A stretch of DNA of 36,216 nucleotides from Alphaproteobacteria bacterium (GTDB taxonomy: Bacteria; Pseudomonadota; Alphaproteobacteria; Thalassobaculales; Thalassobaculaceae). The stretch lies in NCBI GenBank assembly GCA_024742605.1, contig JANSYC010000037.1:1-36216 (forward strand), written 5' to 3'. Positions 27,072-30,889 of the stretch are shown here, piece after piece. Below the pieces are notes generated by a model, which was given only the letters and a program-made list of their open reading frames with translations, searched no databases and was not told the origin of the DNA. Position numbers and translations under genes: made by a program. Within the stretch, counting starts at the first letter, position 1; each line of letters begins with the position of its first letter.

Positions 27072-28131
27072 CCGACCGCTCCTGTGTACACTCTGGCTCG
27101 TCTGCATTCTGGCGCTCGGCGCCTGTGCGCCCACGGTGATCGGCAAAGGCCCGACCACGACATCCCCCCACATCGTCGATGACTGGATCGCGGTGATGCC
27201 GGACGGCGCGCGGCTGCCGCTCGAGATCTGGACTCCGGCAGATCACGGCGGTGCCGAGACCCGTGCCGTGGTGATCGCCCTGCACGGGTTCGGCGACTAT
27301 GCCAATGCCTTCCGTCGGTTCGCGCCGCAACTGGCCGCTGACGGGATCGCTGTCTACGCCTATGACCAGCGGGGCTTCGGCCAGGCCCCCCATCCCGGCC
27401 ACTGGGCGGGAGCAGAGGTTTTGGCCGAGGACGCGGCGACCGTCGCAGCCCTCGCCCGTGCCGACCAGGCAAAGCGCGGCCTCCAGTCCCTTCCGGTGAT
27501 CCTGATGGGCGAGAGCATGGGCGGGGCGGTCGCCATGCTGGTGGCAGCCCGGCCGACGCCCGGCATCGACGCGGTCATCCTTTCGGCCCCGGCGGTCTGG
27601 GGTCGGGACTTCATGCCGGGCTATCAGACCCGGTCCCTCGAACTCACCAGCCGGACCCTGCCCTGGGTGACCCTGACCCCGCGCGGCCTGCCGATCCGTC
27701 CGTCCAACAACATCCCGATGCTGATCCGGTTGGGCCGTGACCGGCTGTTACTCCGCAGCCCGCGGGTCGACATGGTGCACGGTCTGGTCGACCTGATGGA
27801 CGCGGCCCAGGCCGCCGCACCCGACATCCAGCTGCCGACCCTGTTCCTGTACGGCGACAAGGACGATCTGGTGCCGAAACGCCCGACCTGCGCCGCGATC
27901 GCCAGACTGCCCGACCGGCCCCGCCGCTGGCGCGTCGTGGTCTACGAAGGCGGTCATCACATGCTGTTCCGCGATCTGAACGGCGCCCGCGTCGCCCGCG
28001 ATATCTCCGCCTGGATCATGGATCCGGGTGGCGCCCTGCCCTCCGGCGACGAGCGCGTGCCGGCGGTTGCCGGTCGAAGAAGTCTGTCATCGTTCTGTCC
28101 GGAGCGCGGAGAAACGGCAGTCGGCGGCTGA
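27061..28131 (+). CDS. Alpha/beta-hydrolase lipoprotein (lysophospholipase/monoacylglycerol lipase-like)
   Basis: 356 residues. A lipoprotein signal peptide ends in LGAC (Cys22), so the enzyme is membrane-tethered on the outer side of the inner membrane or in the outer membrane. The hydrolase core shows HGFGDY, YDQRGFG, the nucleophile Ser152 in GESMGG, the acid in YGDKDDLV (Asp268/269) and the catalytic His in YEGGHHMLF (299/300). Serine-aldehyde-type 'Hydrolase_4' lipases that cleave monoacylglycerols or lysophospholipids look like this. The gene starts inside the end of the ABC ATPase gene (27061-27071), which suggests coupled translation. The roughly 40-residue C-terminal tail beyond the fold is not conserved in my memory of the family. 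Confidence 0.88.
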   Translation: MRLNRPLLCTLWLVCILALGACAPTVIGKGPTTTSPHIVDDWIAVMPDGARLPLEIWTPADHGGAETRAVVIALHGFGDYANAFRRFAPQLAADGIAVYAYDQRGFGQAPHPGHWAGAEVLAEDAATVAALARADQAKRGLQSLPVILMGESMGGAVAMLVAARPTPGIDAVILSAPAVWGRDFMPGYQTRSLELTSRTLPWVTLTPRGLPIRPSNNIPMLIRLGRDRLLLRSPRVDMVHGLVDLMDAAQAAAPDIQLPTLFLYGDKDDLVPKRPTCAAIARLPDRPRRWRVVVYEGGHHMLFRDLNGARVARDISAWIMDPGGALPSGDERVPAVAGRRSLSSFCPERGETAVGG

Positions 28132-28154
28132 ACGCAGGGGCGTTGATATATCAT

Positions 28155-28170
28155 TCAATAAAATGGTTGA
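28155..28170. promoter_or_regulatory. Upstream (imperfect) ArsR operator copy
   Basis: TCAATAAAATGGTTGA repeats the downstream palindrome with four central-left changes, and keeps the outer TCAA and the whole TGGTTGA arm. The preceding CATT is also shared. Its right end overlaps the -35 box. The two copies are 40 bases apart start to start, about four helical turns. Confidence 0.55.
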
Positions 28171-28195
28171 CTGAAGGACTTTGACCACCTACATT
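28167..28195 (+). promoter_or_regulatory. Promoter of the ArsR/AHSA1 pair
   Basis: TTGACT (28167-28172, five of six) and TACATT (28190-28195, four of six) are separated by exactly 17 bases. The -35 lies in the upstream operator copy and the -10 abuts the downstream one, so a bound repressor would block polymerase. A start 7-8 bases after the -10 falls on the ATG at 28203, which predicts a leaderless message. Confidence 0.6.
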
Positions 28196-28210
28196 CAACC
28201 ACATGGTTGA
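28195..28210. promoter_or_regulatory. ArsR operator: perfect palindrome over the start codon
   Basis: TCAACCA-CA-TGGTTGA is a perfect 7-2-7 inverted repeat that spans the ATG of the regulator gene (28203). TCAACCA-type palindromes are the usual kind of site for ArsR proteins that sit next to AHSA1 genes, so autoregulation is likely. Confidence 0.65.
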
Positions 28211-28574
28211 TCAAGAAAACACCCACCTGAACGCCCTGTTCCATGCCCTCGGTGACGGCACCCGCCGCCGGATGCTGCGCGACCTGGCCGACGGCGAGCG
28301 GAGTGTGAGCCAACTGGCGGAACCGTTCGACATGTCCCTCGCCGCCGCCTCGAAGCACATCAAGGTGCTCGAGAAGGCGGGTCTGATCCGCCGGGAGGTG
28401 CGCTGGCGCACCCATATGTGCCGCCTGGAGCCGGGGCCACTGGCAACCGCGCACGGCTGGCTCGGCTTCTACGAGCGCTTCTGGACCAGTAGTTTGGATA
28501 CCCTGGACCGCCTCCTGCGGGAGGAGCAGTCCGCCGACAGGACACCCCATCGGACAGAAGGAGACGACCGATGA
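28203..28574 (+). CDS. ArsR-family winged-helix transcriptional regulator
   Basis: 123 residues. The domain begins at once (LNALFHALGDGTRRRMLRDL), followed by the recognition region VSQLAEPFDMSLAAASKHIKVLEKAGLI and the wing REVRWRTHMCRLEP. There is no metal-binding ELCVCDL motif in helix 3, so this belongs to the non-metal branch that is paired with AHSA1 proteins. No ribosome site precedes the ATG and the promoter geometry predicts a transcript starting at it. The stop codon overlaps the next gene as ATGA. It probably represses its own operon through the two palindromic sites upstream. Confidence 0.93.
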   Translation: MVDQENTHLNALFHALGDGTRRRMLRDLADGERSVSQLAEPFDMSLAAASKHIKVLEKAGLIRREVRWRTHMCRLEPGPLATAHGWLGFYERFWTSSLDTLDRLLREEQSADRTPHRTEGDDR

Positions 28575-29104
28575 CCGATTCCGATCTCATAAGCGCCCAC
28601 GGCACCCTGATCGAACCGACCACCTTGAAGATCCAGCGCCTGCTGCCCGGTCGGATCGACCGGGTCTGGAGCTATCTGACGGAGAGCGATCTGCGCCGGA
28701 CCTGGCTCGCGGCGGGAGAGATGGGCACGAAACCCGGGAGTTCGTTCGAGCTGGTCTGGCGGAACAATGAGCTCACCGATCCGCCGGGGCAGCGGCCAGA
28801 GGGCTTCTCGGGCGAGCACAGCATGCAGAGCCGCATCCTCGAGATCGATCCCCCGCACCGCCTCGTCTTCAGCTGGGGGGAGGAGGGCAAGGTGGAGATC
28901 GACCTGGAATCACGTGGCGACAAGGTGCTGCTGACCCTTGTGCACCACCGACTGGCTGAACGCTCAACCCGCCTCGCGGTCAGCGCCGGCTGGCACGCGC
29001 ATCTCGACCTGCTGGTCGCGCGGGTGTCCGGGGCGACGCCGACACCGTTTTGGGACTCCTGGACGGGCCTGCGCGCCGAATACGATCGGCTGCTGCCGAC
29101 CTGA
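28571..29104 (+). CDS. SRPBCC/AHSA1-domain protein
   Basis: 177 residues of the START/Bet v 1-like superfamily, the AHSA1 branch named after the Hsp90 co-chaperone domain. Typical segments are the early RLLPGRIDRVWSYLTESDLRRTWLA strand-helix, EIDPPHRLVFSWGEEG in the middle, and the C-terminal helix HLDLLVARVSG. Such proteins bind hydrophobic ligands in a cavity; bacterial members next to ArsR regulators are widespread and largely uncharacterised. It is translationally coupled to the regulator by an ATGA overlap and converges on the flavoprotein gene at 29120. Confidence 0.9.
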   Translation: MTDSDLISAHGTLIEPTTLKIQRLLPGRIDRVWSYLTESDLRRTWLAAGEMGTKPGSSFELVWRNNELTDPPGQRPEGFSGEHSMQSRILEIDPPHRLVFSWGEEGKVEIDLESRGDKVLLTLVHHRLAERSTRLAVSAGWHAHLDLLVARVSGATPTPFWDSWTGLRAEYDRLLPT

Positions 29105-29119
29105 GGTGACGGATCGGCG

Positions 29120-30889
29120 CTAACCCTCTTCAGCAACCCCGGCCAGATGCCTGCCGGCGATGTAGCCGAAGGTCATGGCCGGGCCCAGGGTGATGCCGCC
29201 GCCGGGATAGTTCCCGCCCATGATCGAGGCACCGTCATTGCCGACCGCGTAGAGTCCCGGGATCGGCGTGCCGTCCTCGCGCAGAGCCTGCGCGTCGGCA
29301 TTGGTGCGAATTCCGGCGAAGGTGCCCAGATCGCCGACCACCACCTCGACGGCGTAATACGGTCCGGTGGAGAGCGGGTGAACGCAGGGATTGGGTGTGA
29401 TCTCCGGATCGCCCTGGAACCGGTTGTAGGCGGTCGAGCCCTTGTCGAAATCCGGATCCTCGCCGCGCTCCGCGGGCCCGTTGAAGCGGGCAAAGGTCTC
29501 GGCGAGCGCGGCGGCCGGCACGCCGATGGCGTCGGCCAGTTCGGCCGGGCTGTCCGCCCGTTTCAGATAGCCGGAGGCGAGATGCGGGTTCAGAGGCAGC
29601 GGAAACGGCTTCACGAAGCCCAACCCGTATTTCCGGATCGCGCGGTGGTCGGTGATCAGCCAGCCGCGCATAGCGTCGCCGGTCAGCCCCTCCGCCTCAC
29701 AGGTCTTCACCAGGGCCTGGACGAAATCGTGGTAGGAATTGCCCTCGTTGACGAACCGCCGGCCGTTCGGGCCCACCGCGATCACCCCGGGCTTGGCCCG
29801 GTCGATGAAGTGCGGGAACACCCCCTGGCTGCCATCCGGCCAGACCACCTTGGAGACCGGAACCCAGGCCGCCGCGTTCGGCAGGCTCTCGTCCAGTCCG
29901 GCACCTGCCCCTTCGGCCAGTCGGAGCCCGTCCCCGGTGTTTCCCGGAGGGGCCGGTGAGTTGTGCTCGGCGCCGGTCGGCGCGTGGGCGAACAGTTTTT
30001 TGCGGCGGAGCAGGTCCTGGGGAAAGCCGCCTGCGGCCATCACCACGCCACGGGTCGCCTCGACGCGGGTCAGAATCCCCTCATGGTCGACCAGCGCGCC
30101 GGTTACCCGTCCGCTCTCGTCCGACATCAGCTCGACGACCGGGCTTGCGGTCCAAAGCTCTGCGCCTTCGTCCAGGGCCGACCGCGCCAGCCGCGCCGCC
30201 AGGGCATTGCCGTTGGTCAGCCGCATCGACCGGCCGTGCAGCGCCAGGTCCTTGAAATGGGCAACCAGCCGCTGGGCCACGAATCCGGCGCTCACCACCG
30301 ACTTGGTCACATTGAAAAAATGCAGCAGCTCCTTGCCCGAACCGATCATCATGCCGAGAAAGGTGATCTCCTTCAGCGGCGGGCGCAGACGTTTCACATC
30401 CCGGCCCAGCCCCCGACCGTCATAGGGCGCGGCACAGATCGACCGTCCGCCCGGCTTTCCGCCCGGTGCGGTCGGGTGATAGTCGGAAAACGCGGTGCCG
30501 GTGATGAAGGCGACCTCGGTCTCGTTTTCCATGAAGTCGATCATGCGCGGGCCGTTTTCCAGAAACGCATCGACCCGGGGCCCGTCGAAATGATTGCCCG
30601 CCTCGTGTTCCAGATAGGTGCGCGCCTCCTCCAGGCTGTCCTCGATGCCTTCGCGCGCGGACGGACCGTTGCACGGTATCCAGAGCCAGCCGCCGGAACG
30701 GGCGGTGGTTCCGCCGAACACCGGTTCCTTCTCGGCCACGACCACGTCGAGCCCGTGATGCGCCGCCACCAGCGCCGCCGACAATCCGCCAGCCCCCGAA
30801 CCGACCACCAGCACATCGCAGGTCCGGCTCGGGAACCCGTTTGTGTCGAGACCGGACCGGGTGATGGCGGAGGGGGACATCTGGGACAT
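29120..30889 (-). CDS. FAD-dependent dehydrogenase (3-ketosteroid-delta1-dehydrogenase/fumarate reductase flavoprotein type)
   Basis: 589 residues. The FAD-binding Rossmann motif GSGAGGLSAA (30-39) follows a short N-terminal tail. GGTTARSGGWLWIPCN (about 59-74) contacts the isoalloxazine in relatives, and the C-terminal NYPGGGITLGPAMTFGYIAG closes the FAD site. This pattern is that of KstD-like flavoproteins that introduce a double bond next to a ketone, in steroids or other cyclic substrates; a fumarate-reductase-like role cannot be excluded. No steroid-catabolic genes are adjacent, so the substrate is open. The ATG at 30889 has GAAGG eight bases upstream. No signal peptide is present. Confidence 0.9.
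   Translation of the reverse strand: MSQMSPSAITRSGLDTNGFPSRTCDVLVVGSGAGGLSAALVAAHHGLDVVVAEKEPVFGGTTARSGGWLWIPCNGPSAREGIEDSLEEARTYLEHEAGNHFDGPRVDAFLENGPRMIDFMENETEVAFITGTAFSDYHPTAPGGKPGGRSICAAPYDGRGLGRDVKRLRPPLKEITFLGMMIGSGKELLHFFNVTKSVVSAGFVAQRLVAHFKDLALHGRSMRLTNGNALAARLARSALDEGAELWTASPVVELMSDESGRVTGALVDHEGILTRVEATRGVVMAAGGFPQDLLRRKKLFAHAPTGAEHNSPAPPGNTGDGLRLAEGAGAGLDESLPNAAAWVPVSKVVWPDGSQGVFPHFIDRAKPGVIAVGPNGRRFVNEGNSYHDFVQALVKTCEAEGLTGDAMRGWLITDHRAIRKYGLGFVKPFPLPLNPHLASGYLKRADSPAELADAIGVPAAALAETFARFNGPAERGEDPDFDKGSTAYNRFQGDPEITPNPCVHPLSTGPYYAVEVVVGDLGTFAGIRTNADAQALREDGTPIPGLYAVGNDGASIMGGNYPGGGITLGPAMTFGYIAGRHLAGVAEEG

Follow-up and report, generated by a model that had tools for sequence, protein, structure and literature searches.

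An ArsR-type regulator gene and the AHSA1 gene coupled to it, found in an alphaproteobacterial DNA stretch of 36,216 bases (hereafter the window), very probably form a self-repressing operon with a leaderless message, in which two operator copies would cap the core promoter. The anatomy of the control region, its conservation, the spacing of the operators and the pattern of Shine-Dalgarno (SD) cores are read directly from the DNA of the window and of its relatives. It also appears likely, at somewhat lower confidence, that this leaderless autorepressor module persists on both sides of the divide between bacteria and archaea, the promoter having been swapped between the domains (a TATA box for a -35, or a -35 for a TATA box) and a change of operator spacing (38-41 vs 35-36 bases) keeping the start of transcription at the ATG.

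Operon and control sites in the window

The sequence-only reading had placed a perfect palindrome over the start codon of ArsR, with a less exact copy precisely 40 bases upstream, and both are present (Table 1), the latter matching at 12 of 14 defined positions. The -10 hexamer touches the downstream copy behind a 17-base spacer, as had been stated, with one base (T28195) common to both; the -35 hexamer, described as lying within the upstream copy, does so for four of its six bases but not for the other two. The two copies are the only sites with at least 12/14 matches in the window (0 in 20 dinucleotide shuffles), and TTGACT/TACATT is the sole promoter pair in a scan of 27800-29400 (shuffle mean 0.2).

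Table 1. Features of the ArsR-AHSA1 operon and its control region (window coordinates)
Feature	Position	Strand	Remark
Upstream operator copy TCAATAAAATGGTTGA	28155..28170	+	12/14 match to TCAACCANNTGGTTGA
-35 hexamer TTGACT	28167..28172	+	First four bases = right arm of upstream operator
Promoter spacer, 17 bp	28173..28189	+	Sequence not conserved
-10 hexamer TACATT	28190..28195	+	Last T = first base of downstream operator
Downstream operator TCAACCACATGGTTGA, perfect palindrome	28195..28210	+	Spans predicted transcription start and start codon
Predicted transcription start = A of ATG, 7 bases past -10	28203	+	Inferred from promoter geometry
ArsR-type winged-helix regulator, 123 aa	28203..28574	+	PF12840, PF01022
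Shine-Dalgarno AAGGAG of AHSA1 gene, within 3' end of ArsR frame	28558..28563	+	
AHSA1/SRPBCC protein gene, PF08327	28571..29104	+	Start overlaps ArsR stop (ATGA, 28571-28574)

Both frames have domain matches, above cut-off for the regulator (PF12840, E 2e-15; PF01022, E 1.5e-11) and with E 2.2e-17 for the AHSA1 domain (PF08327) of the second gene; the nearest solved structures of the ArsR by sequence are 3f6o and 7r22. An ArsR start further upstream does not fit, because the frame meets a stop 7 codons before the ATG and holds no ATG, GTG or TTG in between. The lack of a ribosome site at ArsR, claimed earlier, is borne out, with no SD core between -20 and -4 (17 bases) and a duplex energy of +0.7 kcal/mol. 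The AHSA1 gene had been said to be reached through ATGA; the overlap exists, but the gene is not reached by overlap alone because it has an AAGGAG of its own.

The zero-mismatch palindrome occurs a single time in the organism's own genome (4.47 Mb). A wider operator regulon was considered and rejected: the 32 two-mismatch places (window pair aside; control 9) are given little weight because palindromes yield many such matches by chance.

In the proposed mechanism, ArsR dimers would bind two operator copies with the core TCAACCANNTGGTTGA, the upstream copy overlapping the -35 and the downstream copy reaching from the last base of the -10 over the predicted transcription start and the ATG. Each dimer would block one end of the core promoter, and occupancy of either site, chiefly the downstream one, would exclude RNA polymerase. 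Release of ArsR on some signal would lead to transcription from the A of the ATG, ArsR then being translated from a leaderless mRNA with a 5'-terminal AUG and AHSA1 by way of a separate SD at the ATGA overlap. The capped core promoter, and not dimer-dimer contact, would determine how far apart the copies lie. Binding of ArsR to both sites, the exact transcript start and repression itself are what we infer from this arrangement.

Spread and promoter geometry in bacteria

Recurrence at orthologous loci had been set beforehand as a test of the layout. Set A consisted of the window and 80 ArsR loci of named genomes, the best 80 of 168 protein relatives, chosen without use of upstream DNA; set B was selected by a sequence pattern that already demands parts of both copies; plasmid loci, five named bacterial ones and the haloarchaeal ones treated below, were chosen by eye among the matches listed (60 of 220 records; 60 of 102 for the archaeal query). 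A locus was counted as two-copy when its start-codon copy and its upstream copy each matched at least 10/14 positions. The start codon at each locus was the one with the best palindrome overlap, a choice that favours overlap; at L110 it was assigned by hand, a GTG inside the upstream copy having scored higher. Left out of the counts were L116, L119 and L141 (window or mirror matches) and the duplicates L142, L143, L149, L163 and L164, and L120-L127 were looked at apart from the counted sets. L134 and L140, chance matches that are not ArsR, are inside set B but below the two-copy cut. L161 (Nostoc) and L162 (Burkholderia) had no start-codon copy on inspection and enter no count.

The whole layout recurs in 39/81 protein-selected loci of set A, the start-codon copy alone reaching at least 10/14 in 41/81. 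These 39 loci belong to Pseudomonadota, apart from five Bacillota loci and one Chloroflexota bin, and their copies are spaced by 38 (2 loci), 39 (5), 40 (28) or 41 (4) bases. With 32/34 loci of set B and 3/5 named plasmid loci, the bacterial two-copy loci number 74, including L044, whose ArsR starts just past the operator's ATG and which is absent from the tree. Their spacings are 38 (3), 39 (19), 40 (44), 41 (7) and 46 (1). The spaced pair first described is thus conserved, but a fixed 40-bp spacing was rejected as an essential feature, since it is 38-41 in 73/74 bacterial loci and 35-36 in haloarchaea. In shuffled bacterial upstream sequences a 10/14 copy was found anywhere in 164/8200 and at 38-41 in 19/8200. 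The single locus at spacing 46, L103, has a tandem GTAAAT repeat that seems to stretch its promoter spacer to 23.

Protein-blind scans with the pattern (free gap of 10-40 bases) gave 23 places in 22 of 385 genomes of the class, against 5 for a reversed control pattern; 22/23 open an ArsR-like frame (judged by eye, window included) and one is a mirror match. In 398 genomes of the phylum, a draw that overlaps the class draw (three of its 16 matched genomes are common to both), 18 places were found in 16 genomes (control 6), namely 14 ArsR starts, two mirror matches and two chance matches at spacings 51 and 52. At two loci (L106/L119 in G278, L131/L141 in G651) the symmetry of the copies lets the pattern match the opposite strand as well, with the ATG facing away; a divergent second gene at these mirror matches (L119, L141) was rejected, the frames being 73 and 25 aa long and unlikely genes. 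A search of viral contigs gave no relative of either ArsR.

The frame following ArsR is related to the window AHSA1 in 63/74 bacterial loci; next genes were picked mechanically, and the 11/74 that are not AHSA1-like include some doubtful frames. On the protein tree, 7 changes account for the two-copy label in bacteria vs a shuffled mean of 33, in a tree with few columns and many forks unresolved. It could be supposed that the operator pair was simply inherited from a recent ancestor and reflects no selection on operators and promoter, and some groups of loci are indeed near-identical (Mesorhizobium, Aminobacter). Across the 39 loci, however, between-locus pairwise identity is 78% and 85% in the copies but only 27% in the flank and 31% in the spacer middle, near background, and the proteins range down to 50% identity to the window's ArsR (L057), which makes descent alone extremely improbable.

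The promoter bases can be told apart from the operator bases. The promoter spacer in the 74 loci is 15 (3), 16 (19), 17 (44), 18 (7) or 23 (1) bp long, and the operator spacing of 38-41 tracks a promoter spacer of 15-18 bp in bacteria. From the centre outward, the four operator arms carry matching bases, and they diverge only at the promoter elements. For example, the base after GGTTGA is C in 58/74 upstream right arms (giving TTGAC) vs 2/74 coding arms; at the same arm position, both left arms have A in about 80% of the 39 protein-selected loci. The -35 accordingly reads TTGACN in 58/74 loci, and the commonest form of the -10 is TATATT (22/74). Agreement with TATAAT averages 4.16/6 positions for the hexamer whose last base is the first of the downstream copy vs 3.08 for the corresponding arm of the upstream one, an excess with a paired Wilcoxon p of 2e-9.

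Not all relatives follow the layout. Forty of the 81 set A loci are without this start-codon copy; 28 of them have a looser TTAACC/TCAACC-type palindrome (at least 10/12) elsewhere within about 90 bases upstream, one of which covers the start, and 22 of these 28 palindromes abut a -10-like hexamer, the ATG usually following at some distance, as with a leader (a count made without a chance control). Among 36 genomes of the window's own family eight have a match, and five of these eight loci look like a leadered sandwich: L121, L122, L125, L126 and L127 have, by eye, two operators around the promoter at spacing 39-40 and a leader of about 24-26 nt. Another, L123, is seemingly leaderless and has a TTTACC-type operator. 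Because 40/81 loci lack the copy and five of the eight own-family loci look leadered, a leaderless start is a trait of a large subgroup and not of the whole family; the leadered sandwiches indicate in turn that capped promoters extend beyond the leaderless loci.

The upstream site is dispensable, since four loci of sets A and P combine a start-codon copy with no upstream match that reaches 10/14 (L040, L050, L147, and L150 at 9/14). The downstream copy is the more constant of the two. At L087 and L093 the ArsR start (about 1493-1508 of the locus) is covered by the drifted palindromes TTAACTTCATGGCTAA and ATAGCCAAATGGCTAT, with no upstream copy; at these two loci the geometry of the layout seems to outlast the operator sequence.

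Probable leaderless start and the haloarchaeal version

The ArsR message probably begins at its own start codon. When offsets ahead of the ATG were scanned in the 74 loci, the hexamer at -13 to -8 gave the best -10 fit (4.16/6; next best 2.91). Bacterial leaderless genes are marked by TANNNT about 10-12 bp ahead of the start codon, according to the available text of Zheng et al. (2011, PMC3160421), and the A of the window -10, 12 nt ahead of the A of the ATG, agrees with this mark. An SD core precedes 5/74 bacterial ArsR starts (2/39 in the protein-selected two-copy loci) vs 60/74 next frames and 56/63 AHSA1-like next genes, and mean SD pairing is -0.73 kcal/mol for ArsR vs -6.26 for next frames. 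Single inspection of the five Bacillota loci and one Chloroflexota locus revealed no SD core; SD pairing in two Jeotgalibacillus loci is weak (L042, -3.3; L048, -2.7 kcal/mol).

The second codon points the same way. Met-Val starts were found in 41/81 set A loci, and codon 2 is GTT in 40 of these 41, a count not wholly independent of the operator; the sole exception, L065, lacks the operator copy. Among the other Val codons of two-copy frames GTT makes up 23/181 in bacteria and 28/152 in archaea. The GTT bias at codon 2 shows a coding sequence bent to serve the operator. Together with the SD pattern and the positions of the -10 and of the archaeal TATA-like box, it lends indirect support to the leaderless reading.

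In some loci the operator ATG does not open ArsR itself. In two Paracoccus loci (L044, L047) the start-codon operator is kept and the ATG within it begins a very short frame, ATG GTT GAA TGA, with ArsR just downstream; in L039 (Rhodobacterales) it opens an 8-codon frame that ends in a GTGA overlap, ArsR again following. These mini-frames, read by eye at about 1390-1505 of each locus, are possibly leaderless and followed by re-initiation.

A short SD-less leader would be another way to account for the missing ribosome site: transcription would start upstream, for instance from TAAAAT at 28159-28164, and the start-codon palindrome would be an RNA hairpin hiding the start codon. SD-less leaders are common in alphaproteobacteria, and a palindrome included in the transcript would fold. 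Leadered genes of Bacillota normally carry an SD, though, and SD cores are absent from the Bacillota relatives too. The upstream copy moreover conserves the same palindrome, and both the conserved -35/-10 pair and the archaeal TATA position aim at the ATG. A hidden start codon behind a leader is thereby very unlikely, and a message beginning at the ATG is the preferred reading.

The haloarchaeal version was represented by 21 loci from 11 genera, obtained by plasmid protein searches among the matches listed; all fetched loci were kept, and others were listed and not fetched. The start codon lies within an operator copy (typically TTCAACCGGATGGTTGAAC) in 21/21 loci, and the best upstream copy is at spacing 35 (14 loci) or 36 (7) in 21/21, reaching at least 10/14 in 19/21 (9/14 in L151 and L165). 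Shuffled archaeal upstream sequences had a 10/14 copy at 35-36 in 1/4200. The upstream right arm is GGTTAAATA or GGTTTAATA in many loci, and an exact TTAAATA or TTTAATA begins 31-32 nt ahead of the ATG in 17/21; the remaining boxes are TTAAGTA (three loci) and TTAAGCG (L172). In 5/21 loci the best TTAAAT match is not at -31/-32, and in most of these it is close to the opposite arm of the upstream copy. This TATA-like box occupies the place of the bacterial -35. A TA-rich box about 30 bp ahead of the start codon is given for archaeal leaderless genes in the survey text available (PMC3160421), and 72% of protein-coding transcripts of Haloferax volcanii are reported as leaderless (PMC4983044, consulted in part).

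As in bacteria, an SD core is found at 1/21 archaeal ArsR starts vs 19/20 next frames, codon 2 of the Met-Val starts is GTT in 21/21, and 18/20 next frames are related to the window AHSA1. The ArsR-coupled second gene is not AHSA1-like in L151 (annotation: dihydrofolate reductase family protein) and in L154.

The two spacings bear on whether the sites are instead placed so that two ArsR dimers bind cooperatively or form a loop, with promoter fit a secondary matter. Forty bp is near four helical turns, and both copies are conserved. Yet the spacing is 38, 39, 40 or 41 in 73/74 bacterial loci and 35-36 in 21/21 archaeal loci and matches the promoter distance each time, and the upstream copy can be missing. 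The archaeal contrast weighs against cooperative spacing as one clade and one contrast: archaeal ArsR proteins form one side of a tree branch (SH-aLRT 97), and for this reason the shift in spacing counts as a single evolutionary event and not as 21. Because the spacing matches the promoter in each domain, it need not reflect dimer contact; spacing dictated by the dimers is considered very unlikely, and two sites set apart by the promoter that they would cap are preferred.

Known systems and meaning

The repressors of phage PY54 and the C proteins of restriction-modification systems are not known to be of the ArsR type. They resemble the operon proposed here in that their mRNAs begin on the start codon or only a few bases ahead of it and an operator lies close to the promoter, the leaderless regulator genes being cI and cro in the phage (PMC4488713) and those of the C proteins in the latter (PMC4824078). 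C proteins control their own gene (PMC4824078), and PY54 Cro is said not to repress itself (PMC4488713). Unlike here, a start-codon-in-operator layout across phyla and domains is not described in the parts of these two papers that were available (PMC4488713, PMC4824078).

Closer in protein type is Rv2034 of Mycobacterium tuberculosis, an ArsR-type autorepressor in an operon with the polyketide-cyclase-like Rv2035, whose footprint extends from -30 to +3 on the coding strand over a palindromic operator adjoining the start codon (PMC3338718). It shares with the window an ArsR regulator, an SRPBCC-type partner, an operator reaching the start codon and self-repression, which is reported there and proposed here. 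It differs in its operator, CCGTAAGT-N4-ACTTACGG, a single site being described, and the accessible portion of that paper describes neither a leaderless message nor a promoter-capping pair.

Leaderless transcripts have also been recorded genome-wide. In Cupriavidus they are enriched for transcription genes and include arsR (PMC7563307), Sinorhizobium meliloti has 171 leaderless TSS (PMC3616915), and another leaderless regulator has been reported (PMC5401885), as far as the excerpts of these three papers go. The survey of TA-led genes (PMC3160421) gives both promoter placements, bacterial and archaeal, that recur at the ArsR loci, but it deals with genome-wide signals, and its available text does not describe operators or the ArsR-AHSA1 operon. 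No description of the operator pair, its spread or its archaeal form was found in the open-access literature searched, most subscription papers being outside that search.

Leaderless mRNAs are often treated as a lineage-wide genomic habit. In the case of the ArsR-AHSA1 operon, selection seems to favour the leaderless start as a component of a repression device, Bacillota and gammaproteobacteria included. The bacterial and archaeal versions amount to a natural experiment, with common operators and start-codon overlap, two transcription machineries and a spacing adapted to each, and the contrast between them separates the needs of the repressor from those of the polymerase. The module is a candidate portable switch and a candidate test bed for leaderless translation in laboratory species.
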